42,558 nucleotides of DNA from the IMG/VR virus record IMGVR_UViG_3300032050_000273, positions 1-42,558 of that record; one strand, given 5' to 3'. Below the pieces are notes generated by a model, which was not told the origin of the DNA, made no database searches, and worked only from the letters and a program-made list of their open reading frames with translations. The first letter of the stretch is position 1, and the number at the start of each line of letters is the position of its first letter. Below are positions 12,480 to 38,278 of this stretch, in pieces. This DNA is from a virus. Both the position numbers and the translations under genes were made by a program.

Positions 12480-13148
12480 ATGGCTAGTACATATTCCCAG
12501 CTAAAGATCGAGTTGATCGGCACGGGCGATCAGGCGGGTACGTGGGGGACGACAACGAACGTCAACCTCGGCACGGCGCTGGAGGAGGCGATCACGGGCA
12601 ACGCGACGGTAACGTTTGCCAGCTCAAATGCAGCCATAGCATTGACAGATACCAATGCCACACAGACTGCGCGTAACTTGCGACTGATTCTGGGCGGGAC
12701 AATATCTACGACGCAGACGTTGTTTGTACCGGCGATTACCAAGCAGTATCTGGTCACCAACAATCTGTCGAGTCCGGTGGTAATTTCAAACGGCACGAAC
12801 GCATCGCCGACAGGTACAACGGTGACTGTGCCGGCAGGCCGGTCTATGTCGGTATTCAACAACGGCACCAGCATCACAGAGACTGTTACCTACGTTACAG
12901 AGCTTGCTGTAAGTAACGTGACGATCACAAACCCGCTGGTGGTATCAAGCGGCGGCACCGGCCGGGCAAACCTGACGCTAGGTAGCGTGATGGTTGGCAA
13001 CAACACAGGCACCGTAACCATGGTGGCACCCGGCACGGCCAACAACGTGCTGACCAGTAACGGCACCCACTGGGTAAGTCAGGCTCCTGCGGCAGGTGGG
13101 ATTACAACAGGTAAAAGCATCGCGATGGCGATGATCTTCGGCTTCTAA
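12480..13148 (+). CDS. Tail fibre-like protein
   Basis: The 222-residue protein opens with 'YSQLKIELIGTGDQAGTWGT', a start shared by many phage fibre or distal tail proteins. Its C-terminal half contains the common fibre segment 'VSSGGTGRANLTLGSVMVGN' followed by 'GTANNVLTSNGTHWVSQAPA', which often links a stem to a receptor-binding tip in phage tail proteins. It ends in a short hydrophobic stretch ('SIAMAMIFGF'). It is followed by further fibre and adhesin genes and is likely part of the same appendage. Confidence 0.78.
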   Translation: MASTYSQLKIELIGTGDQAGTWGTTTNVNLGTALEEAITGNATVTFASSNAAIALTDTNATQTARNLRLILGGTISTTQTLFVPAITKQYLVTNNLSSPVVISNGTNASPTGTTVTVPAGRSMSVFNNGTSITETVTYVTELAVSNVTITNPLVVSSGGTGRANLTLGSVMVGNNTGTVTMVAPGTANNVLTSNGTHWVSQAPAAGGITTGKSIAMAMIFGF

Positions 13149-13159
13149 GGAGTTATCAA

Positions 13160-13561
13160 ATGGCAAACCCTAATATTGTCAACGTCACGCAGATCTACGG
13201 TCAGACGACATATCTGACCCCTGCGAACACGGCAAACTTTGTGCTGGTCACAAACACCACCAACTCGGGCAACGTGTTCAAGTTGGATCAGATTGTGGCG
13301 GCAAACTTGACTAACGCGGCAGCAAACTGCACGGTGGCTATCTTCACGAGCGGCAACGTTGCGGCGGGGAACGCTGTGGTAGTCAGCTCTAGCAACGTGT
13401 TCCCGATCGCGTCCAATATCTCGGTGCCGGCGTTTGCATCGTTGATCGTGATGGACAAGACCACGGCCACTTATCTGCTGGAAGATAAAGCGATTGTTGT
13501 TGCTAGCGGCACAAACAACGCTATCGCATTTTCAGTTAGCTACGAACAAATCAGCTCGTAA
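13160..13561 (+). CDS. Small beta-rich virion protein in fibre block
   Basis: The 133-residue product is Asn/Thr/Val/Ala-rich with alternating strands and few charges ('LVTNTTNSGNVFKLDQIVAA', 'VFPIASNISVPAFASLIV'). This suggests a jelly-roll or sandwich domain. AAGGAG at 13147-13152 lies upstream. It may be a fibre tip, a fibre-bound accessory protein or a decoration protein. No family is recognised. Confidence 0.68.
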   Translation: MANPNIVNVTQIYGQTTYLTPANTANFVLVTNTTNSGNVFKLDQIVAANLTNAAANCTVAIFTSGNVAAGNAVVVSSSNVFPIASNISVPAFASLIVMDKTTATYLLEDKAIVVASGTNNAIAFSVSYEQISS

Positions 13562-13570
13562 AGGTACGAC

Positions 13571-14455
13571 ATGCCTATCCATGGCTATCCCGGTCAAATA
13601 ATGAGCGCCACCACGGCGACCTATCCAAGTTCTGGTATTTGGACGTTAGCGTTTGGTAAAGGACAAATAGTAAGCACCCTTGTAAACACGTTTACAAGCT
13701 CTTCAACGTGGACTTGTCCTGCTGGTGTAACTGAAGTTGAGTATCTTGTTGTTGCTGCTGGTGGTGGTGGCGGCGGCGGAGGTTCTGGTTACGGTGGCGG
13801 TGGCGGTGGCGCTGGAGGATTTAGAGTAGGAACTGGTTTGGGAGTTGTTGCAGGAACCACTTATACGGTAACAGTTGGCGCTGGCGGAACTGGTTCCGTA
13901 AGCACCGGTCTTGGTGGAAATGGCGGTAACTCAACATTCTCCACAATCACTTCAAATGGCGGAGGAGGAGGAGGTCAGGCAAACCCCGCTACTGCCGGAA
14001 GAGCAGGTGGGTCTGGAGGCGGTGGTGGAACGCAAGCAGGAGGAGTTGGTGGAGGTGGTGGTGCAGGCAACACGCCATCTACAAATCCGTCTCAAGGCAA
14101 TAATGGCGGCAGCGCAAATGGCGGTAGTGACCCTCTTTTACAGGCCGGCGGTGGTGGTGGAGCATCAGAAATTGGGGGAAGTGGTGGGCCAGTAATAGGA
14201 GGTAGAGGTGGCAACGGAACTGCTTCTACAATTAGCGGCCCTTCAGTAACTTATGCTGGGGGTGGTGGCGGCTCTACATTTCAAAATACTATTGGTCCTG
14301 GCGGTGCTGGCGGCGGCGGAAATGGCGGCAGCTATTTTGCCCCTGACGCAACCTCTGGAACAGCAAACCGAGGTGGTGGCGGCGGCGGCGGCAATCCTAA
14401 CGGCGGAACTGGCGGTTCTGGCATAGTTATCATCAAATACCAAATCGTATCTTAG
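13571..14455 (+). CDS. Glycine-rich adhesin (single domain)
   Basis: The 294-residue protein has a short N-terminal head (about residues 1-45), a strand segment 'TCPAGVTEVEYLVVAAGGGG' and then about 210 residues dominated by runs of glycine, ending in 'GGSGIVIIKYQIVS'. This is the glycine-rich domain common in phage tail tips. In Salmonella phage S16 gp38 such runs form polyglycine II helices that bind outer-membrane proteins. A receptor-binding role is therefore likely (knowledge of family plus inference). It is paralogous to the next gene. Confidence 0.78.
   Translation: MPIHGYPGQIMSATTATYPSSGIWTLAFGKGQIVSTLVNTFTSSSTWTCPAGVTEVEYLVVAAGGGGGGGGSGYGGGGGGAGGFRVGTGLGVVAGTTYTVTVGAGGTGSVSTGLGGNGGNSTFSTITSNGGGGGGQANPATAGRAGGSGGGGGTQAGGVGGGGGAGNTPSTNPSQGNNGGSANGGSDPLLQAGGGGGASEIGGSGGPVIGGRGGNGTASTISGPSVTYAGGGGGSTFQNTIGPGGAGGGGNGGSYFAPDATSGTANRGGGGGGGNPNGGTGGSGIVIIKYQIVS
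13709..13755 (+). repeat. 47-bp repeat shared with next gene, copy 1
   Basis: The sequence coding for the start of the glycine-rich domain matches 14634-14680 in 46 of 47 positions (GAG against GAA is the only difference). It is direct evidence of recent duplication or gene conversion between the two adhesin genes. Confidence 0.9.
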
Positions 14456-14462
14456 GATAAAT

Positions 14463-16145
14463 ATGAGCGGCAATTACCCCGGTAACTTCATCACAAGACA
14501 GCCAATAACGGTATCTACCACTACGGCTTCTGGTATTTGGACGCTACAACAAGCGTTGCAATATATTAAAGCCGGCACTTGGCCGGGCCTTCCGGGAACA
14601 ATTGTTACAGAAACATTTATTGCAACAACTAATTGGACTTGTCCTGCTGGTGTAACTGAAGTTGAATATCTTGTTGTTGCCGGAGGCGGTGGTGGCGGTT
14701 CGTGTGGCGGTGGTGGTGGTGCAGGTGGCTTTAGAACTGGTACCGGACTTGCTGTGGTTGGATTGCAAAGTTATACGATTACGGTCGGTTCTGGAGGTGT
14801 TGGAGGCATTTCGTTAGCGGCTGGTTCAAACGGTGGAAATTCCATTTTTTCAACCATCACCTCAAACGGTGGTGGTGGCGGTGGTGGCAACGCGGAAGCA
14901 ATAGGCAAAAATGGCGGTTCTGGTGGTGGGGCCGCATCTGCCGGAGGTAGTGCCTCTGGAGGAAATGGCAATACACCAGTAACATCTCCATCACAGGGCA
15001 ACAATGGTGGCACTAACAACGCAAGTGGTCCCAATTATGGGGGTGGTGGCGGCGGAGGATCGGCGGAGAATGGTCTTAACGGAAGCAGTACTCGTGGCGG
15101 CAACGGTGGAAACGGTACAGCAACTTCTATAGGCGGCAATTCTGCGACATATAGCGGTGGTGGTGGTGCCGGCTCTCAGGGCGGAACTGCTGGAATAGGT
15201 GGTGCTGGTGGCGGGGGCAACGGAACTGCTAGCTCTACAGTAGGAGGAAACGGCGTAGCTAATACTGGCGGCGGTGGTGGTGCTAGTGGGTTTTCAGGGT
15301 CTAACGTAAATGGTGGATCAGGCGGGTCTGGTATCGTTATATTGCGCTACAGGCTGCCCGGCACAGCCACAACTTTTACATTTACAGCATCAGGTACGGC
15401 AACAGCTCCTGTTGGAACAAACACAGCAGAATATTTGGTTGTGGCCGGTGGCGGCGGTTCATCTGGGGTTGTAGCCGCTCTTTATCCAACTGGTGGCGGA
15501 GGCGCCGGCGGACTCAGAACTGGCACAATTAGTATTGTAGGTGGTCAAAGTTACACCGTGACTGTGGGTGGCGGCGGTGCCGCTGGCGCTCCTAGTGCTT
15601 ATGGCAGTAACGGCTCTAATTCTGTATTTCATACAATTACGTCTAATGGTGGTGGCGGCGGAGCTTATGGAACTGGTCCAGGCACAGCTATCGCTGGCCT
15701 TGCAGGTGGTTCTGGGGCAGGAGGTAGTTCTACAGGCGCCGGAGGAGCGGGTAACACCCCATCAACCAATCCATCACAAGGCAGCAATGGCGGCAGCGGA
15801 ACCAACTCTGGCCCACAATACGGAGGGGGTGGGGGCGGCGGTGCCGCACAAGTTGGGGGAACTGGCACAGCTTCAAAAGGCGGTAACGGCGGCAATGGCA
15901 CAACATCGTCAATATCTGGCGTCTCCGTAACCTATGCTGGTGGTGGCGGTGGTGGCGGCTATCAAGCAGGCGCTAGTGCAATTGGAATAGGCGGTACGGG
16001 TGGCGGAGGTAACGGAGGATCGCGATCAAATGGTGTGGCCGGTACAGCAAACACTGGTGGGGGCGCAGGCGGGACGGGCAGTGATAATTCATCCCAAAAC
16101 GGCGCTGCTGGTGGTTCAGGAATTGTTATTGTGAGATTCTATTAA
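14463..16145 (+). CDS. Glycine-rich adhesin with two tandem domains
   Basis: The 560-residue protein has an N-terminal head with 'ASGIWTLQQALQYIKAGTWP', shared in part with the previous gene ('SSGIWTLAFGKG'). Two complete glycine-rich domains follow: the first from 'TCPAGVTEVEYLVVAGGGGG' to 'GGSGIVILRYRLPG' (about residues 60-298), the second from 'FTFTASGTATAPVG' to 'GGSGIVIVRFY' (about 300-560). Each ends in the same GSGIVI strand. This looks like domain duplication within an adhesin gene. Surface-receptor binding through polyglycine helices is the likely role. Confidence 0.78.
   Translation: MSGNYPGNFITRQPITVSTTTASGIWTLQQALQYIKAGTWPGLPGTIVTETFIATTNWTCPAGVTEVEYLVVAGGGGGGSCGGGGGAGGFRTGTGLAVVGLQSYTITVGSGGVGGISLAAGSNGGNSIFSTITSNGGGGGGGNAEAIGKNGGSGGGAASAGGSASGGNGNTPVTSPSQGNNGGTNNASGPNYGGGGGGGSAENGLNGSSTRGGNGGNGTATSIGGNSATYSGGGGAGSQGGTAGIGGAGGGGNGTASSTVGGNGVANTGGGGGASGFSGSNVNGGSGGSGIVILRYRLPGTATTFTFTASGTATAPVGTNTAEYLVVAGGGGSSGVVAALYPTGGGGAGGLRTGTISIVGGQSYTVTVGGGGAAGAPSAYGSNGSNSVFHTITSNGGGGGAYGTGPGTAIAGLAGGSGAGGSSTGAGGAGNTPSTNPSQGSNGGSGTNSGPQYGGGGGGGAAQVGGTGTASKGGNGGNGTTSSISGVSVTYAGGGGGGGYQAGASAIGIGGTGGGGNGGSRSNGVAGTANTGGGAGGTGSDNSSQNGAAGGSGIVIVRFY
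14634..14680 (+). repeat. 47-bp repeat, copy 2
   Basis: Second copy of the near-identical segment described at 13709-13755, here at the start of the first glycine-rich domain of the two-domain adhesin. The flanking Gly-coding DNA is similar but diverges quickly in length and order. Confidence 0.9.
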
Positions 16146-16151
16146 ACAGCT

Positions 16152-16409
16152 ATGGAAAATAAAATCTACATGATGTACGGGATTGATACTGCGATGCACT
16201 TGCTACGTCCGGGTGCAAAGTGGGAAATCACAAATAATTATTTTAGTCGTTGGGAAGACTCCCGTCCTTGTCCAAGCATGGAGGAGGTGTATGACACCAT
16301 GGAGAAGATTCGTGCTTTTGAGGACAGCATCAATACCATCTGGACGGAAGAGCAAAGGTCTGAACTCCTTGGCCGCCAGAGCGAGTTGGAAAATGCGGTG
16401 AACGGATGA
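16152..16409 (+). CDS. Small tail-fibre-associated protein
   Basis: The 85-residue product contains 'LLRPGAKWEITNNYFSRWED' and 'SRPCPSMEEVYDTMEKIRAF', a layout (RPGA-x-W ... W-x-D ... P-x-P-x-x-E-E-V) reminiscent of XkdW-like or fibre-assembly proteins encoded next to tail-fibre genes. The resemblance is in spacing, not a firm family match. It overlaps the oxygenase gene by 4 bases (ATGA). Confidence 0.65.
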   Translation: MENKIYMMYGIDTAMHLLRPGAKWEITNNYFSRWEDSRPCPSMEEVYDTMEKIRAFEDSINTIWTEEQRSELLGRQSELENAVNG

Positions 16410-17014
16410 ATGTCCACAATCTTTTTCCGTTGCCCATTGGCTTTGCCCGTTTGGGGCGAGATCTGACCGAGAAAGAATTGAGCTTCATCCTCGGCCAAGA
16501 CAAATACGCCAATCAAGGCAACACTACCAGTTCTGACCGTATGCTCTTGAAGAGCAAAGAACTGACGGACATTCGTGAGTTTATCGAAGACGCGATGGTG
16601 GACTACTTCAAGACGGTACATAACCCTAAAGGGGATGTAGCGCTATACGTCACACAGTCATGGGCAAACTACACAGATCCTGGGCAGTACCACCACAAGC
16701 ACGCACACCCAAACAGCTTCATTTCTGGCGTGTTCTATCCGCAGGCCGATCGGTCGGTAGACAAGATCTATTTCTACAAGAGCGGCTACGAGCGGATCAA
16801 GGTACAGCCGGCCACATGGAATCACTGGAACTCGGAGAGCTGGTGGTTCGAGGTGGGCGCAGGAGATCTGATCCTGTTTCCATCGCACCTAGAACACATG
16901 GTCGAGACGAAGGTTGGGAATGAAACCCGCGTGAGTATCGCGTTTAACACTTTTCTCAAGGGACACATAGGTGTCGATGAGAACTTAACTGGATTGCAAC
17001 TAGGAGAAGATTGA
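16406..17014 (+). CDS. 2-oxoglutarate/Fe(II)-dependent oxygenase
   Basis: The 202-residue protein matches the 2OG-FeII_Oxy_5 type. It has the metal-binding start 'HHKHAHPNSFISGVFYPQ' (H-x-H-P-N-S-x-x-S-G-V-x-Y-P), then a strand region, 'GDLILFPSHLEHMVET' with the distal His, and 'NETRVSIAFNTF' with the Arg that should hold 2-oxoglutarate. Such enzymes hydroxylate proteins, sugars or small molecules using oxygen and 2-oxoglutarate. The gene lies between fibre and lysis genes. In cyanophages similar genes occur among tail genes, so modification of a virion protein is one option (inference). Confidence 0.82.
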   Translation: MNVHNLFPLPIGFARLGRDLTEKELSFILGQDKYANQGNTTSSDRMLLKSKELTDIREFIEDAMVDYFKTVHNPKGDVALYVTQSWANYTDPGQYHHKHAHPNSFISGVFYPQADRSVDKIYFYKSGYERIKVQPATWNHWNSESWWFEVGAGDLILFPSHLEHMVETKVGNETRVSIAFNTFLKGHIGVDENLTGLQLGED

Positions 17015-21581: not shown

Positions 21582-24500
21582 ATGAGCCTCCATAACTTAG
21601 CCCACCACCTCCAGAGCGCTGGTCGCAACGGAGATTCCGTGCTTGTCCACATGTCTCCTAACGAGGTCAAGGGCTTACAAGCACTGGCCATGGCGCACGG
21701 CGGTAGTCTGACTATCAACCCCAAGACGGGGCTGCCAGAAGCGTTCTTCCTTGCGGCCATCCTGCCAACGATTGCAGGTATTGGTTTGAAAGCAGCCGGC
21801 ATGACCGCATTGCAAGCGGCTTTGACTGTAGGCGCAGCCGGCACGTTAGCCACTGGCAGCTTGGGCAAAGGCTTGATGATGGGCTTGGGTGCTTTTGGCG
21901 GCGCCGGATTGGGAGGGGCGCTTGCTGGCGGCGCAGCAGGAGCCGCAGCAGGAGCCGGCACTGGAACTACGGCAGCAAGTCTGGCTCAAGGAATGACGCA
22001 ACCACAATTGGCGGCAGCATTTGGACGCCCTGATTTGGCGGCAGCAACATTTACTCCGGGTACTGGCCAAACAGTTCTTGGTCAAGCCGCATTGAATCCT
22101 GGTACGACAGCGTCTTTAGATGCGCTCAAGCAAACTCTTGGATCTCAGGCAAATTTTGCAGGAATGACGCAAGGAGTGCAGGGTGTGGCGACACCAGTTG
22201 CAATTCCGCCGCCTATCAATGTAGCAGAGACTGCACAAAAATTAGCTATAGAGCGTGCATCAAATCCTTCATATCTTGCTTCTGCTGCCAAGCCTTCATC
22301 GACACAATTGTTTGGTGTAGATGGGGCGCAATTCAAAGAAAATTTAGCGTCTATGGGCCAAGGATTCAAAGACATTACAGAAAGCCCAGAAAAACTTCTT
22401 CAGTTTGTAAAAGACAACCCGTATGACGTGGCAAGCGCGGCTTCTTCTATTTATTCTGGAATGCAGGGGGAACGCAAAATGCCACAGCGCAAAAAAGGCG
22501 AGCCTATAGAAATCATGGAATATGAATACGACTACCCCATAGGCGTTCCCGGCGGTAGAACTTCTGAGCGCAACTACTTTCCGAACGCTCGGTTCACGCC
22601 GACAGGTAAGTTTTACAGCGCCGCAGGCGGTGGTTTGATGTCGTTGGCAGAAGGCGGTTCGGTAGAGGAGATGTCCCGCTTAAATGCTATCGGCGCAAAC
22701 ACCATGTACCCGATGGCAAACCAAATGTCTCAGCGTTATGCGACACCGGCACAACGTCCTGTATCTGAGAATGTCATTCGTCCTGTGGGTGGTACAAACA
22801 TAGATCCGTACACAGGCGAACAGCGGTTTGCCGACGGCGGTGGAATTGATGATCAATTAACCAAGTTGTACGGTGATGTGTTGAAACGTGCGCCGGATTA
22901 CGAGGGTTTGCAGTCATGGAAGAATCAGTTTGGCTCTACGCTTGACCCGAATGAAATTGGGTTTTTTGTAAACAAGGCCAACGAAGAACTGTCCTCTAGA
23001 GGCCTGCCAGCGTTTTCTGGAACGTGGACATATAACGCACCGGGAGCAGACAAAGCGGCAGCAGATCAAGCGGCAGCAAAAGATGCGGCAACCAAAACCA
23101 ACAATGTTGGATATATCGGTGGCGGCTTGGGAACCACGACAGGAAGCGATGAGGAAGCCGAAGCCAAAACTCCTTCGCCATTCAAAGACTTTACATTTGG
23201 ATACGATCCAGCAACAGGAAGCTTTGCCAAGCCTGGTGCGGGAGCGCCGCAGGGATACGCTACACCGTCGCAAGTGGCAGATATTTACGAAAGAGTGTTA
23301 GGCCGAGTGCCGGATATTGGCGGCTTGAGCTTCTACGCGCAGCAGCAAAAAATGACGCCGCAGATGCTTGAAGCACAACTGCAATCGTCTCCTGAATACT
23401 TTACCAATTTGACCAAACCGCTGGTTCCTGAGATTACGTACGGGCCAACTGGTCTAGCATCTATCTCTGGTGCGCCTGCGTATAACGCTCCGCAGTATGG
23501 GTATCCAATGCCAGTGGTACCAAATGTACCGGCACCATTCACACAGATATTGACCAAACCATCGGGTGGCACCAGCACTGGCGTCACGGGCGGCACAACT
23601 GGCGGCACAACTGGCGGCGCGACCGGAACTACGGGTGTAACAGCTGGCGCACTTGCAAACAACGCAGCGGCAGAGATTGAAAAACTGTATTCGTCTTACT
23701 TAAAACGGCCTTCGGATCGAGGCGGCTTTGATTATTGGATGAGTACTATTGGTGCAGATGGAATTATCACACCCGATGAAGTGAATAAGTGGAAGTCCGC
23801 TGCTGACCTAGAGTTGAAGATGCGCGGACAAACACCAGGCACTACCACTACCACCAAGGTTGACACTGGTGCCAAGGTTGATACTGGTGCCAAATTAACT
23901 GACAAAACTACTAAATTAGACAGCAAGGTTATTGATGGTGTGTACACCCCCGTATCAAAGACAGGACAACCTTTACGCGCAGCACAACTGCAACTAAAGA
24001 ATTTGTACAAACAGGTTCTTGGTAGAACGCCAGACGCGCCTGGTCTTGATTACTGGATGAAGACTATCGGCGCGGACAACATAATTACCAAAGCCGAGAA
24101 AGAGCAGTTCCGCCAAGCAGCGCTGCCTGAAATTGAAAAAATGAAGGGTCAGCCAAAACCAAAGACCGCTTTGCAATTGCGCATGGAAAAAGCGCGCGAG
24201 CGCATAGAAAAAGCGCGCGAAAAGTTAGCTGCTGCAAGGGCGCCAAAACTGGCGACGAAAGCGGCAGAAAAGCAACAAAGAGAAGCGGAAAGATTGGCTA
24301 GAGTGAATGCAAAGGTTGCAGCTGCTATGGCAGGTCGGAAGATGGCTGCTGGCGGCATTGCTGATCTTGGTGGTTATTCTGACGGTGGCAGACTACTGAA
24401 AGGACCCGGAGATGGAGTTTCTGATTCTATCCCTGCTGTCATTGGCAACCGGCAGCCTGCTCGTCTTGCTGATGGTGAGTTTGTGATCCCTGCACGTATC

Positions 24501-24647
24501 GTGTCAGAGCTTGGCAACGGATCCACTGATGCCGGCGCCCGCAAGTTGTACGCGATGATGGACAGAATTCAGCGCGCCCGCAAGAAGTCTGTAGGCAAGG
24601 AAAGAGTGGCAGTCAACAGTAGAGCAGACAAGTATCTGCCAGCATGA
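21582..24647 (+). CDS. Internal virion (ejection) protein with four DUF4214-like repeats
   Basis: The 1021-residue protein starts with 'LVHMSPNEVKGLQALAMAHG', a beginning frequent in large virion proteins of environmental phages. A long Ala/Gly-rich, membrane-active-looking region follows (about residues 55-130). Four repeats of the pattern [I/V]-x-x-L/I-Y-x-x-[V/Y]-L-x-R-x-x-D-x-x-G-[L/F]-x-x-[W/Y] lie near residues 423-475, 560-607, 695-745 and 803-855, matching DUF4214. The C-terminus has a Lys/Arg/Ala-rich helix, 'GPGDGVSDSIPAVIGNRQPA' and 'RLADGEFVIPARIVSELGNG', a conserved ending of such proteins. Double-glycine motifs occur at 'LAEGG', 'FADGG' and 'MAAGG'. Likely ejected or lumenal. 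Confidence 0.72.
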   Translation: MSLHNLAHHLQSAGRNGDSVLVHMSPNEVKGLQALAMAHGGSLTINPKTGLPEAFFLAAILPTIAGIGLKAAGMTALQAALTVGAAGTLATGSLGKGLMMGLGAFGGAGLGGALAGGAAGAAAGAGTGTTAASLAQGMTQPQLAAAFGRPDLAAATFTPGTGQTVLGQAALNPGTTASLDALKQTLGSQANFAGMTQGVQGVATPVAIPPPINVAETAQKLAIERASNPSYLASAAKPSSTQLFGVDGAQFKENLASMGQGFKDITESPEKLLQFVKDNPYDVASAASSIYSGMQGERKMPQRKKGEPIEIMEYEYDYPIGVPGGRTSERNYFPNARFTPTGKFYSAAGGGLMSLAEGGSVEEMSRLNAIGANTMYPMANQMSQRYATPAQRPVSENVIRPVGGTNIDPYTGEQRFADGGGIDDQLTKLYGDVLKRAPDYEGLQSWKNQFGSTLDPNEIGFFVNKANEELSSRGLPAFSGTWTYNAPGADKAAADQAAAKDAATKTNNVGYIGGGLGTTTGSDEEAEAKTPSPFKDFTFGYDPATGSFAKPGAGAPQGYATPSQVADIYERVLGRVPDIGGLSFYAQQQKMTPQMLEAQLQSSPEYFTNLTKPLVPEITYGPTGLASISGAPAYNAPQYGYPMPVVPNVPAPFTQILTKPSGGTSTGVTGGTTGGTTGGATGTTGVTAGALANNAAAEIEKLYSSYLKRPSDRGGFDYWMSTIGADGIITPDEVNKWKSAADLELKMRGQTPGTTTTTKVDTGAKVDTGAKLTDKTTKLDSKVIDGVYTPVSKTGQPLRAAQLQLKNLYKQVLGRTPDAPGLDYWMKTIGADNIITKAEKEQFRQAALPEIEKMKGQPKPKTALQLRMEKARERIEKAREKLAAARAPKLATKAAEKQQREAERLARVNAKVAAAMAGRKMAAGGIADLGGYSDGGRLLKGPGDGVSDSIPAVIGNRQPARLADGEFVIPARIVSELGNGSTDAGARKLYAMMDRIQRARKKSVGKERVAVNSRADKYLPA
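23589..23624 (+). repeat. 12-bp tandem repeats (Thr-Gly-Gly linker)
   Basis: GGCGGCACAACT occurs twice in a row and is followed by a third copy with two changes. They encode a Gly-Gly-Thr-Thr linker between the second and third DUF4214-like repeats. Slippage within a linker is the probable origin. Confidence 0.8.
23856..23891 (+). repeat. 18-bp tandem repeat (KVDTGA)
   Basis: Two adjacent 18-bp units starting AAGGTTGA differ at one position and encode Lys-Val-Asp-Thr-Gly-Ala twice, in the linker between the third and fourth DUF4214-like repeats. Confidence 0.85.
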
Positions 24648-26119: not shown

Positions 26120-27736
26120 ATGGCTATCCCCGGCATTCAAGAGATACAGTCGCTGGCGACGAAGTACAGCAAGGTTCAGTTAAAGCAGATGGCGCAGAGG
26201 GGTCTGATAGATCCCACCAAGGCTGTGATGGCCGGGATGATGATCGACCGCATCCAGAAGCAGAACTTGCAGCCACCCCAGCAGACCGTGGCAGATGAAG
26301 TACTGGGCGCGCCTCCTGTGCCGCAAGCCATGCCGCAGCAGGCATCGGCAGGTATGACGGCACTACCTTCGGGCTTGCCAGAGGAAATGGCGGGCGGCGG
26401 CCTTGTAGCGTTTGCTGAAGGCGGCGATGTTCCGGGTTATGCCAAGGGTGATCTCGTCGACTTCCGCAACGACCCAGAAAGATTTGTATCACCTGCCAAG
26501 CAGCGTGAGCTTGATCAGTTGAGCATTCCGTATCTCATGGATGATCTCAACTACGCCCGCAGAACAGGCGATCCCAAGCTGATTGCCGCGGCCGAGCGTC
26601 AGGTTCGTCAGCGCGTGGGTCCGAAAGCAGACTTGAATGGTCTCTACGCTTTGTTCCCATCCGCAGCTGCTGGTGAGTTAGACAGGATGAGCATGGACAG
26701 GCCTGGCCGTGCAGGCTATGTTGAAGATCCGCTCCTGCGTGGTGCAGAGATGCGCGGCGGGGAGAAGTTACCTGTGCGTGAGATTCCTTCTGTGGCGCCA
26801 CCACCTCCTCCTCCACCAAAGCCAGCGGCGAAGAAAGAAGAGCCGAAGAAATTTGAGGTGCAGCCGGCAGAGCAAAAGCCAGCAGAGAAGCCTGCGCCAG
26901 AGCAAGAGATCAAACCGCCAGAAGATTTTGCTGCTGAACAGTTAGAGGTTCCGGCCAAGCCTGACTTCTCCGAGCAGTATGGAAAAGTCCGTGAAGCCTA
27001 CAAAGAAGCTGGTGTTAACGTTGACTTGTACAAAGATCTGCGTAACCAGCTCAAGGAAAAGAAAGCCGGTTTTGGTACTAGGCGTGATGCTGCTCTAGGC
27101 CATGCCATGATGGCGTTCGGCTTTGAAATGTTGGGCGCTCGCCGCGGGCAAGAGTTTGCCAAGATGAGTCAAGCGGGGCAGAAAGCGCTGTACCAGTACA
27201 TGGGCAGCATGGACAAGATTACTGAGAACGAAGAGCGGCTTGAGACGCTTGACCGTCAGATCCAGTTGGCAGAGCAGCAGTTCAAGATGACAGGCGCTGA
27301 TTCTGCTATGCGCCGCATGGAGAAGCTTGAGGATAAGAGAACAGCGATCATCGGCAAGAATGCTGAACTTGCGCAGGATGCCAACAAAGTTCGCGCTCAA
27401 GTGGCGGCGGATGTCTATCGCACCAATATGACATTCAAAGCGCGGCAAGAAGCCAACGCAGCAAACCTTATAAGAGCATTACAAGGTAATCGCGGTGGCC
27501 TGACAGACAAACAGATTATCGACTTACGTGCCGGCATAGAAATGAATGAAGGTGCGCGGTTGCGTGAGCTGTACAAAGATCGCGGCAGCAGGGATCAGAT
27601 AGAAGCGATTGTTCAAGAAGAGATTGATAAAAAAGTTTTAAACGAGGTCAACAAAGCTCGTGGCATCCGTCAGTCGGGTAACATTTCTGTACCGTCTAGC
27701 GGGCAAACTTGGCAAGTTCAGCCGTATACAGACTAA
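26120..27736 (+). CDS. Internal virion protein, Pro-rich linker and coiled coil
   Basis: The 538-residue protein starts with a helical part ('YSKVQLKQMAQRGLIDPTKA'), followed by 'MAGGGLVAFAEGGDVPGYAK' with two double-glycine motifs. A region with 'NDPERFVSPAKQRELDQLSI' and a Pro/Lys/Glu-rich linker (about residues 210-285) come next, then a long coiled-coil half (about 285-500). The N-terminus 'DPTKAVMAGMMIDRIQKQ' is widely seen in environmental phage internal proteins (recalled). It overlaps the following gene at TAATG. Probable ejection protein; no enzyme motif seen. Confidence 0.7.
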   Translation: MAIPGIQEIQSLATKYSKVQLKQMAQRGLIDPTKAVMAGMMIDRIQKQNLQPPQQTVADEVLGAPPVPQAMPQQASAGMTALPSGLPEEMAGGGLVAFAEGGDVPGYAKGDLVDFRNDPERFVSPAKQRELDQLSIPYLMDDLNYARRTGDPKLIAAAERQVRQRVGPKADLNGLYALFPSAAAGELDRMSMDRPGRAGYVEDPLLRGAEMRGGEKLPVREIPSVAPPPPPPPKPAAKKEEPKKFEVQPAEQKPAEKPAPEQEIKPPEDFAAEQLEVPAKPDFSEQYGKVREAYKEAGVNVDLYKDLRNQLKEKKAGFGTRRDAALGHAMMAFGFEMLGARRGQEFAKMSQAGQKALYQYMGSMDKITENEERLETLDRQIQLAEQQFKMTGADSAMRRMEKLEDKRTAIIGKNAELAQDANKVRAQVAADVYRTNMTFKARQEANAANLIRALQGNRGGLTDKQIIDLRAGIEMNEGARLRELYKDRGSRDQIEAIVQEEIDKKVLNEVNKARGIRQSGNISVPSSGQTWQVQPYTD

Positions 27737-30700
27737 TGGCTAAATACTCAGTCACCTCTCCTGAAGGCAAGCGCTACGTAGTCACCGGCCCTGAAGGCGC
27801 TAGCCAACAGGAGGTGCTGCAAGCCGTGTTCGATCAGCTTGGCATCAAGCCACAGGAACCTGAGCGCCCAGACCGTACGCTTACGCAAGAAGTAACTGCC
27901 GGCTTTCGCCGTGGCAAGGAGCGGCTCAAGTCCACGCTAGGAGACGTTCTGCCTGCCATGGTGGCTAGCGGCCTTGGCTTTGAAGACTATGCCAAGCAGC
28001 AGATGGCAGAAGCTGCGGAGACAGAGCGTCAGATCGCAGAGTACAACCCGCCTTCCTATCGGTCGTTCAGGGAGATTGAAGGGCCACGTTCAGCTTTGGG
28101 TTATGCGGCAGAGACGCTAGGTGAAGTAACCCCTGACATCCTGACATCTCTGATACCTGGTGGCATAGGTGGCGCTGCTGCGCGTCGCGTTGGTATCGCT
28201 GGCTTGGGTGCCGAGCAGATAGCTCGCCGCGGTGCTATAGGTGAAACGGCGGGTGTCTATCTTGGCAGCTTCGCCCAAAACTCTCCAGAGATCTTCCAGA
28301 ACATCTATCAAGAGACAGGGCAGCTAGAGCCTGGTGCTGCTGCGCTGTTCGGATCCGTCAATGCTGTGCTGGATTCTTTCCTACCTGCATCTATCCTGCG
28401 CTCAATGTCTGCGCCTGTACGTGTTGGCGTGGTAGAGAAGATTCTTGAGCGCTCTGGCATGGAGCCAAGTTTGCTGCGCAAGGTAGCAGCGCAAGTGCCG
28501 GGTAACGCGGCGCTTGAGGGTCTGACAGAAGGCGCGCAAGAGACAATTAGTCTGGTAGCAGAAGACTTTGTCAGCAACACCGAGCGCATCTGGGGCAGTA
28601 AAGAATTTGATCGTATCGTTGATGCCACGCTCAGAGGGTCGATTGCTGGTGGTGCGTTTGGTGTACCCGGCTCTGTGGTTGAGCGTGTGCGTGAGCGGGC
28701 AGCCGAGCCAGCGGTCAGGTCAGAAGAGATTGCTGCGGCAGAAGAGCAGCTAGCGCGCGAGATACCTCCGGCTGCCGAGCCTGAACCTGCACCGATGGTC
28801 AAGCTTGCCCGTAAGGACTTGCTGCAAACAGGATTGAAGCCGCAGTCAGGGTATCTACGTCAACTCGTCGACAAAGACTTGAGCATCCCAGAAGACGCCA
28901 CGCAGGTAGAGGCGACGCTGGAGAAGATGCGGCAGAACCCGAAGATAGATCCTGAAGTACTGGCTGCGGTAGAGAAAGTCATTGAGGCATACAGGACGCC
29001 AGCAGAGCAGGTTACAGAAGAAGCTCCCACGCCTGCTTTGTTCAGTGCCGAGCGCAAGAAAACCAAAGAGCGCATCCCAGAGCTGGAGGCGTTAGCCCAA
29101 GGTGTTGTTGATGGTACGGTTACCAAAGAGCAATACGACGAAGGCGTCAAAGCATTTAAGCCTGTCACTCCGTACGAAGAAATCCCTGCGCCGGCTTCCT
29201 CTGCTGATCTGGAAAGATCGCTGTCTACGGATAAGCGTGAGCGCATTTATGCCCCGCGGGAGGAGCTGGAAGAGGGCTACCCTGTCGGTCTGCGGCTGGA
29301 CATCCCTGCTTACACCAATCATGGTGTGTGGGCTATCTCTGTCCATGAGCAGCAGAAGAACTTCAACGCCGGCAAGTCTATTGGTTACGACTCTGTAGCG
29401 GCAATTACGGAGCCAAGCTTTGGAGCCGTAGAGAAGGCTGCATTATCCATCGCCGCGGGCAAGGCTAAGTCTACGATTGCGGTGGTCAAGGGCAAGTGGA
29501 AGCCAATTACAGAGAAGGAAGCTGTTGCCCAATCCAAGGCTGCGTTAAAGGACAAGAGCTGGGCGCAGGTGGGCATGGATCCCACGCGGCATTCTTACTT
29601 CTACGATCGTGCGACTGGCGAGCCTGTAGTCTCGGGCGACGAAGCCATCATGGTGGGGCCGCTGGTACTGGTGAAGAACCCGGTATACGCACCGAAAGAT
29701 CAGTTCTTGTTCAGCAGCTCTCCGTTGGTAAATGCGCCGCCTAACGAGCGGGGTATGACACGGGATGCGGTAGAACAGGTAGTACAAACCATCAAGCCAA
29801 CCTGGACGAACGCTCCCGCGCATGAAACTTTGCAGAGTGTCAGTGATCTGCCCGAGGCTTTACGTGAGCAGGCAGAGCGGGATGGCGTGAATCCGCGAGG
29901 TGTGTACGACCCAGATAGTCAGGTGGTGTACCTGATTGCAGACAACATCTCAGATAAAACACAAGCTGCCATCACGTTAGCTCACGAAGCGCTTGGCCAC
30001 TTCGGCCTGCGTGTGGTGTTGGGCAAGAACTTCAACAAGATGATGGACGATCTGTATCGGTCGAACAAGATGGTTCGTGACCGTGCGGACGAGAAGATTG
30101 ATGACGGGATGGACAAGCGCACCGCCGTGGAGGAGGTGCTGTCAGAGATGGCGCAGGAGGTGTACGACGTCCGAGTGCCGAGGAGCAAGAACAAGTTATC
30201 CGCTTTGCAGAAGGTCATCAATGCGATTCGCCAGTTCCTGCGTGACTTAGGTGTGCCGCTGCGGGAGATCACAGATCAAGAGGTTATTGGCTTAATTGCC
30301 AACGCACGTGCGGCCGTGGTGAAGGGGCCGGTCAAGGCTGCGATGCCCGCCAAGGAGCAGGCAAAATACAGCACTCGATCCAAGGGTATCTTTGATGGAC
30401 TGAACCAGCAGGTGAACAACCTGCCAGGCATGAACTCGCAGCTAGCTGATGACTTCAAGAACGCGATGTCTAACGTGCCGGACAAGGTACGTAGTGCAGC
30501 GCTCGGCTTCCTGACGATGCCACAGATACAGGAAATCTACGGTACGGCTCTGCCTTCTCTGAAGAAGCTGACTGCCGCGCTGGAAGCCCGTGCGTCTGAC
30601 ATGATGGATCGTCGGCAGCGGATCTCCAAGAACATCCAAGACTGGTACAAGATTGCCAATAAGCACAAGGCTGCGTTGCCACGGTTTTTCGCGATCGCCA

Positions 30701-32991
30701 ACCGCACCACGTTGGATCAGATTGATGTGCTTGATCCGGCGATGGCAGACAACCCGCTGACCAAAGAGTTCAAGAAACTGCCGGCGGACTTGCAGAACGT
30801 ATACAAGCAGCTGCGCGATGACTATAAGAAGTCATCCGACGAGTACATGGATTTGCTGCTGTCGAACCTGCAGCAGAGCAAAGCATCTGAACTCAGGCTG
30901 AAGATGGAAGCCAAGCGGCTAAAGGTATACCTGCCGCTGTTCCGTATGGGCGACTACTGGGTATCGTACAACGACAAGAACGATGAACGTGTATCCATGG
31001 CGTTTGAGTCTGTGCGGGAAGCCAAGCAGGCTGCGGACAAGGCTCGTGCAGATGGCATGGCAGATGTCCAAGAATTCACCCGCTTGCAGCAGATCAGTTA
31101 CCGCAGCGCGCCGCCTACCGGCTTTATGGGATCGGTCGTCAAGCAGCTGGAGGATCAGGGCGTCAAGGCCGAGGTGATCGACAGCATCTACCAGACCTAC
31201 CTTTCTCTTTTCCCTGCGCAATCCGTACGCCAGCAGTTCCGCAAGCGCGAGGGCAGACTGGGTTTCCGCGAGGATGTGTTCCAGGTGTATGCGAATGTAG
31301 CTACACGCATGGCCAATCAGCTAGCCAACATGAAGAACGCAGAGCCGCTGGAGACTGCGGTGACTGGTGTGCGTGAGGAGTTTGAGCAGAACCCCACCAT
31401 GGAACTGCGTGATGTCGTGGACAACATGCAGAAGCAGCTGGACTTCATCCGCAACCCTGTCAACGGTGACATTGTTAACAAGGCAAGCTACTTCAGCTAC
31501 ATGTGGTTCATCGCTGGTAACGTATCCAGCGCGCTCGTCAACCTGACTCAAATGCCGATTGTGGTCTACCCGCTTTTGGCCGGTAAGTATGGCTTTGGTA
31601 ATGCGGCAGATGCAATGCGCAAGGCAACGGCTACGTACTGGAAAGGTGGCAAGGATAACAACAGTGAGTTCCTGCCTGACTGGACGTTTGGCGCCAAGGC
31701 TACTGGTGAACTGAAGCAGCTGTATGACGTAGCAGTCCAGCGTCAGGCAATCCGTCGCTCAACTGGCTACGAAATCACAGAAGCCCGCAAGGCCAAGGTA
31801 GAAGATTTCACCGGTCGCAGAGCGCAGATAGAACACGGTCTTGGCTGGATCTTCCAGAACTCTGAACGTGCCAACCGTGAGATCACCCTGATTGCTGCGT
31901 ACAACCTAGCTCGTGAAGGCGTCAAGGGCAAGCCGGGTATGTCGGTGGACAACGCAATTGAGTATGCGCTGTCTGTCGTTAACGACGCACACGGCGCATC
32001 TCTGGCAGAGATTGGTCCGCGGTTCTTCCAACAAGGCATCGGTAAGGTAGCCTTCACCTTCAAGCGATTTGCACAGGCGCAGATCTACCTGCTAGGCAGA
32101 CTGTTCCATCAAGCGTTCAAGAATGCAGACAAAGAAACCCGTGACCTAGCCCGCAAGCAGCTGCTGGGCATCGCCGGTATGTCTTACATCTTCGCTGGTA
32201 TCCAAGGTATGCCGCTGTACGGCGCGGTCTCTCTGCTGATGAACATGCTATCCGACGATGATGACGAGCCGTTCGACATGGACGCAAGTGTCCGTGCGGC
32301 GTTCGGCGACATCGGCTACAAGGGTCCGATCAATGCGCTGTTGTCTGTGGATATTGCAAGCCGTACGGGCTTCAATGGTTTGCTGTGGCGTGATGATCCC
32401 AAGCGTTTGGCAGAGATCGGGCCGACGTTGTATGCCATCGAGCAGGCCGCGGGTCCAGCCTACGGCGCATTCAGGAATGCAGAGCGTGGCTTGAAGTTGG
32501 TACAAGAAGGTGAGTGGCAGCGCGGTATGGAAGCGCTGGTGCCAAGCTTCGTGCGTAACGGATTGAAGGCTTTCCGTCTAGGTACGGAAGGCGCTATGAC
32601 CAAGGATGGCGTACCAATCACGGACGATATCGGTGTCTACAATACCTTCATGCAAATCTTCGGGTTCAACCCTGCGCAACTTGCAGAAGCACAAGCAAGG
32701 GCTGGGGCAGAGAAACGTGCAGAACGTGCCATCATGGATCGGCGCGCTTCGTTGTTGGAGAAAGCCTACCTAGCCCGGCAAGAAGGTGACAGCGATAACT
32801 TGTCCGACATCATGGGAACTATCGACAAGTTCAACGAGAAGAATCCAGAGGTCGCCATCAGTGCCAAGACGCTCCGCATGTCATTCGCGCAGCGGCAGCG
32901 GCAGATTGCACAGAGTGTGGATGGTGTGTACCTGAATCCAAAGCTACGTGCGAGGCTGATGGATACCTACGGCGGTGGCGGTGAGGACTAA
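27736..32991 (+). CDS. Giant polyvalent ejection protein with HEXXGH metallopeptidase-like and LPD38/PLxRFG-like regions
   Basis: The 1751-residue protein is the largest in the window. Residues 1-40 ('YSVTSPEGKRYVVTGPEG') form a start common in phage internal proteins. An Ala/Gly-rich, membrane-active-looking section spans about residues 115-330. About 520-670 is a folded domain with 'GMDPTRHSYFYDRATGEPVV'. At residues 750-755 is HEALGH, a HEXXGH motif as in dipeptidyl peptidase III, with a Glu-rich helix downstream. The C-terminal third, containing 'QQGIGKVAFTFKRFAQAQIY' near 1430, resembles LPD38/PLxRFG domains of phage polyvalent proteins. A joint role as DNA-ejection conduit with enzymatic activity is likely (inference). 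ATG 27736 overlaps the previous stop. Confidence 0.72.
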   Translation: MAKYSVTSPEGKRYVVTGPEGASQQEVLQAVFDQLGIKPQEPERPDRTLTQEVTAGFRRGKERLKSTLGDVLPAMVASGLGFEDYAKQQMAEAAETERQIAEYNPPSYRSFREIEGPRSALGYAAETLGEVTPDILTSLIPGGIGGAAARRVGIAGLGAEQIARRGAIGETAGVYLGSFAQNSPEIFQNIYQETGQLEPGAAALFGSVNAVLDSFLPASILRSMSAPVRVGVVEKILERSGMEPSLLRKVAAQVPGNAALEGLTEGAQETISLVAEDFVSNTERIWGSKEFDRIVDATLRGSIAGGAFGVPGSVVERVRERAAEPAVRSEEIAAAEEQLAREIPPAAEPEPAPMVKLARKDLLQTGLKPQSGYLRQLVDKDLSIPEDATQVEATLEKMRQNPKIDPEVLAAVEKVIEAYRTPAEQVTEEAPTPALFSAERKKTKERIPELEALAQGVVDGTVTKEQYDEGVKAFKPVTPYEEIPAPASSADLERSLSTDKRERIYAPREELEEGYPVGLRLDIPAYTNHGVWAISVHEQQKNFNAGKSIGYDSVAAITEPSFGAVEKAALSIAAGKAKSTIAVVKGKWKPITEKEAVAQSKAALKDKSWAQVGMDPTRHSYFYDRATGEPVVSGDEAIMVGPLVLVKNPVYAPKDQFLFSSSPLVNAPPNERGMTRDAVEQVVQTIKPTWTNAPAHETLQSVSDLPEALREQAERDGVNPRGVYDPDSQVVYLIADNISDKTQAAITLAHEALGHFGLRVVLGKNFNKMMDDLYRSNKMVRDRADEKIDDGMDKRTAVEEVLSEMAQEVYDVRVPRSKNKLSALQKVINAIRQFLRDLGVPLREITDQEVIGLIANARAAVVKGPVKAAMPAKEQAKYSTRSKGIFDGLNQQVNNLPGMNSQLADDFKNAMSNVPDKVRSAALGFLTMPQIQEIYGTALPSLKKLTAALEARASDMMDRRQRISKNIQDWYKIANKHKAALPRFFAIANRTTLDQIDVLDPAMADNPLTKEFKKLPADLQNVYKQLRDDYKKSSDEYMDLLLSNLQQSKASELRLKMEAKRLKVYLPLFRMGDYWVSYNDKNDERVSMAFESVREAKQAADKARADGMADVQEFTRLQQISYRSAPPTGFMGSVVKQLEDQGVKAEVIDSIYQTYLSLFPAQSVRQQFRKREGRLGFREDVFQVYANVATRMANQLANMKNAEPLETAVTGVREEFEQNPTMELRDVVDNMQKQLDFIRNPVNGDIVNKASYFSYMWFIAGNVSSALVNLTQMPIVVYPLLAGKYGFGNAADAMRKATATYWKGGKDNNSEFLPDWTFGAKATGELKQLYDVAVQRQAIRRSTGYEITEARKAKVEDFTGRRAQIEHGLGWIFQNSERANREITLIAAYNLAREGVKGKPGMSVDNAIEYALSVVNDAHGASLAEIGPRFFQQGIGKVAFTFKRFAQAQIYLLGRLFHQAFKNADKETRDLARKQLLGIAGMSYIFAGIQGMPLYGAVSLLMNMLSDDDDEPFDMDASVRAAFGDIGYKGPINALLSVDIASRTGFNGLLWRDDPKRLAEIGPTLYAIEQAAGPAYGAFRNAERGLKLVQEGEWQRGMEALVPSFVRNGLKAFRLGTEGAMTKDGVPITDDIGVYNTFMQIFGFNPAQLAEAQARAGAEKRAERAIMDRRASLLEKAYLARQEGDSDNLSDIMGTIDKFNEKNPEVAISAKTLRMSFAQRQRQIAQSVDGVYLNPKLRARLMDTYGGGGED

Positions 32992-33453: not shown

Positions 33454-33586
33454 TTTTTGGCCTTGTTTTCTGGTAGCAGTCGTAGCATAGCCACTGTCTT
33501 CTGCCGTGTTTGATCTTAAAGTAACCGCCCGGACAGCGGCGAAAGCTGGCGCAGGTAGCGCACCAGCGAGTCTGTGTCAGATTCAC
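33434..33586 (-). CDS. 50-residue zinc-ribbon protein
   Basis: A short gene starts at GTG (33586-33584), overlapping the SDR stop as GTGA, and ends with TGA at 33436-33434. The product carries two Cys pairs, 'WCATC' and 'WLCYDC', about 22 residues apart, with a basic segment between ('FKIKHGRRQ'). It overlaps the NrdR-like gene by 20 bases in another frame. The coupling and the regular zinc-ribbon spacing argue for a real gene. Function unknown. Confidence 0.55.
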   Translation of the reverse strand: MNLTQTRWCATCASFRRCPGGYFKIKHGRRQWLCYDCYQKTRPKNVVSDV

Positions 33587-34485
33587 TTGAGTAACTTGTC
33601 AGCTTCTTCAAAGATGGATTCAAGAGAGGTCAGTGTTGGCCTGTATCCCAGCGTGTACGCCGCCGTGTTGGTGGAGTAGTAGCAGGGCTTGACTGCCGCA
33701 GGGTGGTGCGGAGATCCGGCGCTCACCACATACTTCATGCCATACCGCTGCGACATCCCCTCCAGCAGTTTCTCTTTGGTCACGGGCGCTCTGCTGTAGC
33801 AGTCCACCGCCTGATTGATATTGTTGTTCTTCAGCAAGACTTGGATCATCTGGTAGAAGTCCTTGGGTCCCATGTAGTCACGGGATAGGCGGTTCTTGTC
33901 TGCTCTGAACGTTTCATTTCTTATGACCGCCTGCACCATCTGACTGACCATGAACTGGTGATCAGGATTCATGGTGCTGCTGTAGTAACTGAACACACGT
34001 AGGTCGATGATGTTTCTGTCAGACAGCCGATGACGGTACTCTGCCTGCGCCTTGGCGACCCCGTAGTAGTGGTGCGGCTGGATGTCGTTGATAGGAAAGG
34101 ATGACATCTTCTGTGCGCTGGCAGGCGTGTCAAAGTTATCTCCGAACACCGCACCGCTGGAGATGAAGATGTACTGACAGTTCTTGTGCTGCTCCAGATA
34201 GTCCAACACCATCAGGTCATAGAACCCTGTGACGTAGGAGATGTTGCTACCCATCTGCTGGATACGCTCTGGGCTGCCGGCGCCGATGAAGTTGATGATG
34301 GCGTCGAACTCATGATGCCGCGAGAAGTCAGACAGGAATCTGGTGGGATGCTTTTTGTTGTTCTCCACCAGCCAGCGGTCGAGCGCGAGTTTGTTGCGAG
34401 CAAACAGGTACAGCTCTGCTCCTTCAAAAGACAGAATCAGATCCTTGGCTATCTCGCTGGTAGCCCCGAGTATTGCAATCTTCAT
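33583..34485 (-). CDS. SDR-family NAD(P)-dependent sugar reductase/epimerase
   Basis: The 300-residue protein opens with a Rossmann turn ('MKIAILGATSEIAKDL') and has 'YIFISSGAVFGDN' and the catalytic Y-x-x-x-K pair ('HHYYGVAKAQAEYRHR'), as in extended short-chain dehydrogenases acting on nucleotide sugars. It lies directly after the ThDP enzyme with an 8-base gap. In the yersiniose pathway the matching enzyme (YerF) reduces the acetyl side chain added by YerE. That specific role is an inference from gene order. A 4-keto-reductase or epimerase is the main alternative. Confidence 0.75.
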   Translation of the reverse strand: MKIAILGATSEIAKDLILSFEGAELYLFARNKLALDRWLVENNKKHPTRFLSDFSRHHEFDAIINFIGAGSPERIQQMGSNISYVTGFYDLMVLDYLEQHKNCQYIFISSGAVFGDNFDTPASAQKMSSFPINDIQPHHYYGVAKAQAEYRHRLSDRNIIDLRVFSYYSSTMNPDHQFMVSQMVQAVIRNETFRADKNRLSRDYMGPKDFYQMIQVLLKNNNINQAVDCYSRAPVTKEKLLEGMSQRYGMKYVVSAGSPHHPAAVKPCYYSTNTAAYTLGYRPTLTSLESIFEEADKLLK

Positions 34486-34493
34486 GTTCTCCC

Positions 34494-36275
34494 CTATTCC
34501 ATCAAGTCTATGTACATCAGACTGCGTAGTTCTTCTCTGTCTAGCAGTGGCGCCATATCTTCCAGCGGTCTGGATGACATCGTGCCGTCTGCCCGCATGA
34601 ACGAGCCAATCGTTGGCGTGGTTGGCTTATGCGGATCCATGATGACCTCTATGATCTCAGGATCATCGTTGCTCAGTATGCTGTCGATCAGCGTCGCTAC
34701 CTGAATGTTGTTGTGCATCTTCCTGTATCTCAGGCCGAAGCAACTTGCCACGTTTGAGAATGGCCGGATATGCACCCCTGTGTCTTCGGTCGATCCTACG
34801 TACCGGCTGTCGAAGTACTTCTCCTGCGTAATCCTGATCGCGTGATAGCCAGCGTTGTTGAACACGAAGACCTTGATGGGTAGTTGGTGGTGCTTGATGA
34901 TAGCTAGCTCTTGCAGGTTGAGCTGGATGCCGCCGTCGCCTGTGACGCAGATGACCCGCTTGCCGGTAGCCATGTGCGCGCCGATAGCAGACGGTAGGCA
35001 GGATCCCATCATGGCCAGGTTCTTGGCACCAAACATCCGAGTGTTCTCTTTTATCTCCAACACTTGGTGGCCGATAATAAAAGCCTGTCCTGATCCTGTC
35101 GGCGTGAGAACAGCATCCTCTGGTAGTTGCTTGCCCAGTTCTTGGTAAAAGTAGTACGGGTTGACGTACTGCTCATCCCGCACGTCTTTGAACGTTGCAC
35201 CGGCAGGGAACCGCTCCTTGACCTTGCGGCAGTAGTCCAGCCACTCCTGTGACGCAGAGACAGGCTTCTCGTACAGCAGCGCGTCTATCAGCTTCTTGGC
35301 GCAGACCCGTGAGTGTCTGCCGACATTCAGCCCCGGTTTGTTGGCCTCTGCCGGATCAAGGTCAATCATGTCAACGAACGCGCCTCTGGCAAACGTCTCG
35401 ATGTTGTGGCTAGTGTGCTGCACACCCAGACGCGCCCCGATAGACAGGATGTAATCGGCGTTCTGGATGATGATGTTGGGGTAGCGTGGGCCAAAAGAGT
35501 TTGACCGCCCGAAGTAATTGGGATGGCTGTCAGGGATCAGATCAACCGCGCCCCATGTTGTCTGCACAGGGATGGTGAAGGCTGATGCCAACGCTCTGGC
35601 CGCGTCCTTGCCGCCGCTGGTGAACACGCCGTTGCCGAACAGGATCAGTGGGCGCTTGGCTGATTGCAGGCGCTGCCGGATGTCCTTGATCAGATCTTTC
35701 GTTGGTGCTGCGTTAGAACTGAATCCTGTGTAGCCTGCGAGCGTGTCCGGCGTGATGTCAGCACACTGCACGTCCAGCGGAATGTCCAGCCACACAGGTC
35801 CGGGGCGGCCGTCGTTTGCCATAAACACAGCCTTCTCCAACTCCATCTTCACGTCGGCAGCCGAGCTGATGAACTTGGCATACTTGGTAATCGGCTTGAC
35901 TACCTCAATGATGTCTAGCTCTTGGAAGCCTCGTATGCGCAGGTTCAGGCCATGGGCAGAGAACGTCTGCGTGATGTTGCCGGAGATGATCAGCATGGGT
36001 ACGCTGTCTGTAAATGCAGAGGCAACAGCCGTGATAGCGTTAGTACCGCCGGGGCCGCTGGTTACAAACAGCACACCTGTCGAGTTCACAGTTCTGCCAT
36101 AGGCATAGGCTGCGAACCCGCAGGACTGCTCATGATGCAGGTGCATGTAGCGCAGGCCGTCGGTCTTCCCGACGCTGTCCAGCAGGTGCATCATGCCACC
36201 GCCAGACAGCAGGAAGACAGTATCTGTACCAGTTAGCTCTTTGATCCTTGAGCAAATGTAGTCAGATACTTTCAT
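34494..36275 (-). CDS. ThDP-dependent acetolactate-synthase-like enzyme (YerE-like)
   Basis: The 593-residue protein has the three domains of the acetolactate synthase/pyruvate oxidase group. The cofactor-activating Glu lies at residue 49 ('HLHHEQSCGFAAYAYGR'), 'SGPGGTNAITAVASAFTDS' follows, and the ThDP-binding motif GDG ('CVTGDGGIQLNLQE') is followed by N-N ('VFNNAGYHAI') 24 residues later. Stand-alone enzymes of this size next to a CDP-hexulose 3-dehydrase are known from yersiniose synthesis, where YerE joins an acetyl unit from pyruvate to C-4 of a keto sugar. Its ATG overlaps the dehydrase stop (ATGA), supporting a shared pathway. A plain acetolactate synthase is less likely here. Confidence 0.8.
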   Translation of the reverse strand: MKVSDYICSRIKELTGTDTVFLLSGGGMMHLLDSVGKTDGLRYMHLHHEQSCGFAAYAYGRTVNSTGVLFVTSGPGGTNAITAVASAFTDSVPMLIISGNITQTFSAHGLNLRIRGFQELDIIEVVKPITKYAKFISSAADVKMELEKAVFMANDGRPGPVWLDIPLDVQCADITPDTLAGYTGFSSNAAPTKDLIKDIRQRLQSAKRPLILFGNGVFTSGGKDAARALASAFTIPVQTTWGAVDLIPDSHPNYFGRSNSFGPRYPNIIIQNADYILSIGARLGVQHTSHNIETFARGAFVDMIDLDPAEANKPGLNVGRHSRVCAKKLIDALLYEKPVSASQEWLDYCRKVKERFPAGATFKDVRDEQYVNPYYFYQELGKQLPEDAVLTPTGSGQAFIIGHQVLEIKENTRMFGAKNLAMMGSCLPSAIGAHMATGKRVICVTGDGGIQLNLQELAIIKHHQLPIKVFVFNNAGYHAIRITQEKYFDSRYVGSTEDTGVHIRPFSNVASCFGLRYRKMHNNIQVATLIDSILSNDDPEIIEVIMDPHKPTTPTIGSFMRADGTMSSRPLEDMAPLLDREELRSLMYIDLME

Positions 36276-38269: not shown

Positions 38270-38278
38270 CTAGTTCTC

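Follow-up and report, generated by a model that had tools for sequence, protein, structure and literature searches.

How a phage acquires new receptor-binding tips is the question raised by a pair of adjacent glycine-rich adhesin genes, here called GR1 and GR2, in IMG/VR virus record IMGVR_UViG_3300032050_000273. The whole stretch analysed, positions 1-42,558 of that record, is a genome fragment of 42,558 nucleotides (nt) and is referred to below as the window; matches to an SU10-type adaptor and major head protein within it point to an SU10-like podovirus. A preliminary description reported that a 47-nt block of GR1 recurs almost exactly in GR2, and ascribed this to recent duplication or ongoing gene conversion, either of which would generate new tips. 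We consider another explanation likely: GR1 and GR2 are tip adhesins in which conserved brackets stay with each gene position (slot) while the domain interiors between them are exchanged, and the shared block is a local bracket transfer.

GR1 (13571-14455, on the plus strand like all features of the module; 294 amino acids) is the one-domain adhesin of slot 1, and GR2 (14463-16145; 560 amino acids) is the two-domain adhesin of slot 2, as had been described. Both match the Pfam family Gly_rich_2 (PF21722), GR1 with an E value of 1e-23 (84.9 bits) and GR2 in two stretches with 5e-55 (187.3 bits), against a curated cut-off of 24.3 bits; the same family was matched by 65/65 panel domains. In the arrangement that we propose, each gene would begin with an N-terminal anchor particular to its slot and continue with one or two receptor-binding domains. 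The slot-1 anchor (M[AP]IHGYPGxIxSA...; 13571-13708) forms the N-terminal part of GR1 and is conserved in the slot-1 genes of relatives, unlike slot 2, whose own anchor (MSxxYPGxxIT...ASGIWTLQQALQxIKAGxWPG; 14463-14633) is conserved in the relatives' slot-2 genes. The domains comprise the GR1 interior (13757-14430, with approximate limits taken from alignment entropy), GR2 domain 1 (residues 55-297, 14625-15353, by Pfam match) and GR2 domain 2 (15369-16142, starting near residue 303 and running to the C-terminus). Entropy along the alignment shows that glycine-rich motifs alternate with hypervariable segments in the GR1 interior.

A PDB sequence search with GR1 and a GR1 profile returned no useful match, and a search of annotated phages returned one weak record. 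The AlphaFold2 model of GR1, with a mean predicted local distance difference test (pLDDT) score of 90.5, matches the cyanophage Pam3 fibre with Z scores of 17.1 (2.3 Å over 182 residues, 29% identity) and 16.5, followed by a Bxb1 tail-tip chain (Z 16.0) and then by ALK/LTK glycine-rich domains (Z 7-8); a protein of Halorubrum phage HF2 is also among the fold matches. Each GR domain would combine a TNF-like strand framework with a lattice of loops that are rich in glycine and hypervariable at their ends. By this modelled fold and by their position, GR1 and GR2 are very probably the receptor-binding tips of tail fibres, which agrees with the preliminary description.

The evidence for exchange comes from related loci, reached by way of the two GR genes and the genes flanking them on each side. 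Where open reading frames (ORFs) are truncated at the end of a contig, the domain count shifts, and slot labels assigned automatically to such loci (e.g., L009/L010, L014/L016) were disregarded. For example, L113 and L117 have similar backbones (about 96% in the aligned parts), and their anchors and opening strands are identical at 170/180 and 179/180 bases, their GR1 linkers at 114/120 and their GR1 ends at 27/27, whereas the interiors are about 45-78% identical with many insertions and deletions (indels). Across close pairs, the share of same-residue codons that are identical is 0.63-0.91 in brackets versus 0.35-0.46 in interiors (Fisher P down to 1e-20). Synonymous difference is thus nearly saturated inside and low outside, which indicates import rather than local point mutation. 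Brackets have their nearest neighbour in their own slot in 52/59 cases (P<5e-5), interiors in 23/59 (P 0.024).

The replacement is all or none. Where upstream flanks are at least 98% identical, by single best matches, 70 de-duplicated cases have interiors of at least 95% identity and 10 have interiors below 75%, with none between; some cases are one contig fetched twice, and these pair counts are not independent. L166 and L170 share a 99.9% identical upstream flank and the same domain 2, but their domains 1 and 3 are unrelated alleles, identity being lost at the YLVV codons and regained at GIVxIK. In such exchanges the two framework strands, opening and closing, are retained and the part between them is new. 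Interiors also move between slots: domain 2 of L102 matches domain 1 of L103 at 92% over 721 bases. Domain 1 is 99.9-100% identical over 750 bases among L222, L237 and L234, whose second domains differ and whose upstream flanks show no match. As read from these alignments, the data show slot-fixed brackets, all-or-none replacement of interiors and cross-slot movement. The earlier proposal that recombination creates new tips is borne out, and the main route is that the brackets are conserved while the domain interiors they enclose are replaced whole, also across slots.

The 47-nt block of the window sits at the opening breakpoint. Its first copy (13709-13755) is the domain-start bracket of GR1 and its second (14634-14680) that of GR2 domain 1; both encode WTCPAGVTEVEYLVVA, and in GR1 a predicted beta strand (model residues 55-61) closes the block directly before the first glycine run. 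Direct comparison confirmed that 46/47 bases are identical and that the surrounding DNA has diverged, as same-residue codons are identical at 13/15 positions inside the block and only 42/136 outside (Fisher P 4e-5). A segment shuffle of codon identity along the GR1-GR2 alignment gave P 3.5e-4 for the window. Of the 470 bracket pairs compared within single loci of the collection, this one ranks highest, the next being a pair in L014 (45/48), and over 48 bases GR1 and GR2 share 46 in the window versus 28-37 in 15 other genomes. The excess identity of the block in the window is local. An exact search for the block in viral_contigs found only a contig near-identical to the window.

The alternative that survives best, though we regard it as improbable, needs no DNA transfer and lets protein constraint and codon preference coincide in a conserved motif. 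Part of the identity does reflect protein constraint, because WTCPAGVTEVEYLVVA is a conserved family motif, and the GR genes favour codons ending in T or A (G+C content at third codon positions, GC3, 0.33). However, when codons were resampled with the peptide fixed, at least 46/47 identical bases arose with P 5e-5 under GR codon usage and 1e-5 under that of other ORFs, values that are optimistic because the block was chosen after the fact. The 15 relatives reach only the lower identities given above, and the peptide itself is unusually alike between the slots, with 16/16 residues identical in the window versus 10-12/16 in those relatives. Most likely, the near identity of the block is the trace of a short transfer that took place in the window lineage between the two brackets. 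The direction and timing of this transfer are inferred, and the slot signals in the block are mixed, the A of WTCPAGV being slot-1-like and TEVEY slot-2-like.

It is quite unlikely that collapsed or misjoined metagenome repeats produced these patterns. The glycine-coding DNA is repetitive, and contigs from dataset 3300005525 break just 3' of GR2: one, 100% identical to the window over 13,742 bases including GR1 and GR2, ends at 16221, and a second, also 100% identical, begins at 16238. The first contig reproduces both genes exactly, but it possibly derives from the same reads as the window and is therefore not an independent population sample. Against an artefact, many different records contain swaps, and the codons at which these break are the same.

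Family-wide gene conversion that continues between the two paralogs is slightly less probable still; the preliminary description had offered ongoing gene conversion as one of its two readings. The window pair and the second high pair, in L014, would fit concerted evolution. However, the mean identity of GR1 and GR2 brackets within genomes (33.2 of 48 bases, window included) is about that between genomes (32.5), and no clear local segment was found in the 14 other genomes (lowest P 0.038). As a general process, conversion does not hold, with 15 genomes lacking excess identity and 14 lacking a clear local segment; what stands is one local transfer in the window.

It is very unlikely that one adhesin gene was recently duplicated in tandem and its glycine runs then changed in length. 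Adjacent genes sharing a 46/47 block would suit a duplication, but 15 relatives possess the two slots, each with its own anchor, and would all have to have duplicated the gene independently, and few same-residue codons are identical outside the block. The gene order A, B, GR1, GR2, C, D, E is found in most close relatives, and in 15 of the relatives both GR genes have about 525-590 amino acids, that is, two domains' worth. The anchors of slots 1 and 2 differ, and each is kept across the two-gene relatives except L115, which has two one-domain GR genes. This conservation shows, on sequence grounds, that the GR1-GR2 pair is old and not a recent duplication, and the earlier reading of the 47-base repeat as a duplication is thereby corrected. 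Related genomes do vary strongly in domain number and glycine runs, as the preliminary description expected, and wider relatives have up to four tandem domains per gene. The end of GR1, GIVIIKYQIVS, resembles a shortened linker, and the one-domain GR1 of the window probably reflects loss of a second domain. A one-gene variant occurs in seven records (L153, L158, L162, L149, L161, L151 and L157), in which gene B is missing, gene A is longer (318-343 amino acids) and the one adhesin, of two domains, starts differently, in most cases with MFAYTKIMQAL or a close variant.

Least likely of all is targeted hypermutation of the tips, whether by a diversity-generating retroelement or by selection acting on very rapid point mutation: hypervariable segments do lie between conserved motifs, but reverse transcriptase (RVT_1) had no match in the window, a fragment, or in five related records of 64-67 kb, interiors differ by indels as well as near-saturated synonymous changes, near-identical phages mostly have identical interiors, and intact donor interiors exist elsewhere (L222/L237/L234).

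We return to cassette exchange and propose the following mechanism. Each slot keeps the DNA that encodes its anchor and the two framework strands, one opening the domain (...WTCPAGVTxVDYLVVA) and one closing it (GGSGIVIIKY...). Homologous recombination within these strand-coding brackets would replace everything between them, the whole loop-bearing interior, as one cassette, sometimes across slots. The block of the window is one such opening bracket, most likely altered by a short transfer between GR1 and GR2 in the window lineage. Exchange is probably aided by a phage Erf-type annealing recombinase, a role suggested by an Erf-family annealing protein gene in two (G001 and G002) of the five related records; one of the two is the record of L120, which is among the nearest to the window. 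Rad52-like phage recombinases, including Erf of phage D3, recombine diverged sequences well (PMC3945230). The RecT, Rad52 and RecA families were not found in the records searched, and Resolvase (serine recombinase) had no match in six records; tyrosine recombinases were not searched for. More tentatively, and we hold this rather doubtful, the phages may share a stock of glycine-rich domain cassettes that are interchangeable, any of which could enter any of several slots through the Erf-type recombinase, with the brackets kept recombinogenic at the DNA level. If true, this would give the phages a receptor-binding repertoire of a combinatorial kind that needs neither a dedicated switch nor a retroelement.

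Several points weigh against this interpretation. Interiors retain a faint slot signal. The search for donors of the GR1 and GR2 interiors found nothing close except the 100% identical contig, and the nearest relatives of the window have already diverged, with flanks of about 90%, so that swapping in the window lineage is deduced from other pairs; between the window and L119, brackets and interiors show no significant contrast (P 0.17 and 0.89). The Erf gene is found neither in the 42.6-kb window nor in the three other records of about 64 kb. All records are metagenome assemblies, in which repeats can be misjoined, and receptor binding by GR1 and GR2 is read from fold and position.

The module is flanked by conserved genes. 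Gene A (12480-13148), a tail-region gene 5' of the adhesins that belongs to phrog_31104, of unknown function, keeps its position in most relatives and lies inside a stretch of 88-90% DNA identity common to the window and L119/L120. Gene B (13160-13561; 133 amino acids) is present in most genomes with two glycine-rich genes and absent from the one-gene variant. Gene C (16152-16409; 85 amino acids), conserved 3' of the module, is weakly XkdW-like: XkdW matches were obtained in 6/39 relatives (best E 6e-4), and comparison with the XkdW nuclear magnetic resonance structure 2hg7 gave a weak Z of 3.7 over 52 residues. A Foldseek fold search with gene C gave no match, leaving the weak XkdW likeness alone, and gene C is a possible candidate for a fibre assembly protein. 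Directly 3' of it lies a conserved 2OG-Fe(II) oxygenase gene (16406-17014). GC3 is about 0.21-0.40 in GR genes versus 0.42-0.70 in adjoining genes, and it is low in the GR genes of every relative measured; in the window, the other ORFs have 0.59. Farther along the window are a 1021-amino-acid ORF (21582-24647) matching DUF4214 (E 1e-19), a 1760-amino-acid ORF (27709-32991) with a large polyvalent protein associated domain (LPD39), and a sugar-pathway block on the minus strand (33583-41832) that includes an NAD-dependent epimerase, a TPP (thiamine pyrophosphate)-dependent enzyme, a DegT-type aminotransferase, a weak Anp1 match and a nucleotide-sugar epimerase.

The exchange unit, its breakpoints and its slots can be read from sequence alone, and metagenomes thereby allow a direct measurement of how fast host recognition changes in uncultured phages. 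The breakpoints also supply a natural rule for where such glycine-rich domains tolerate exchange.

Among known systems, Pam3 gp24 (PDB 7ypx, 7yfw; PMC9608196) resembles GR1 in its TNF-like strands, glycine-rich lattice and hypervariable tip. Pam3 carries a single domain of this kind, docks through an alpha-helical domain and has a chaperone, gp25, made of two domains (PMC9608196). In contrast, the GR genes come as two genes with one or two tandem domains and other anchors, and no N-terminal helix is predicted for GR1, though its residues 1-30 have a pLDDT of about 50. The Pam3-type fibre is a homotrimer with a dedicated chaperone; here, the weakly XkdW-like gene C stands 3' of GR2. The gp38 adhesins of T-even phages (S16, T2, PP01; PDB 6F45; PMC6851490, PMC12892980) are likewise composed of glycine-rich motifs split by hypervariable segments that set receptor specificity. 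In Pfam, however, the GR genes match Gly_rich_2 only and no gp38 family, there is just a partial match to phrog_863, annotated as tail fiber assembly (E 4e-9), and exchange in the GR genes concerns whole domain interiors and several slots. S16 gp38, a beta-helix with a polyglycine sandwich fold, is not among the fold matches listed, an absence that still leaves room for such a fold. Haloarchaeal hafunaviruses, a different virus group, also carry glycine-rich adhesins, and the available text on them (PMC8651126) does not describe a tandem slot system. In metaviromic and metagenomic islands, receptor-binding genes or domains are replaced by distant homologues in otherwise near-identical genomes; glycine-rich domains, fixed brackets and slot changes are not described in the available portions of those reports (PMC3909814, PMC7468147). 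Thus, variation between the glycine-rich motifs of gp38 and the replacement of receptor-binding genes or domains in phage genomic islands are already known, whereas the exchange unit (a whole Pam3-type domain interior), the sharp breakpoints at two framework strands and the movement across slots are new.
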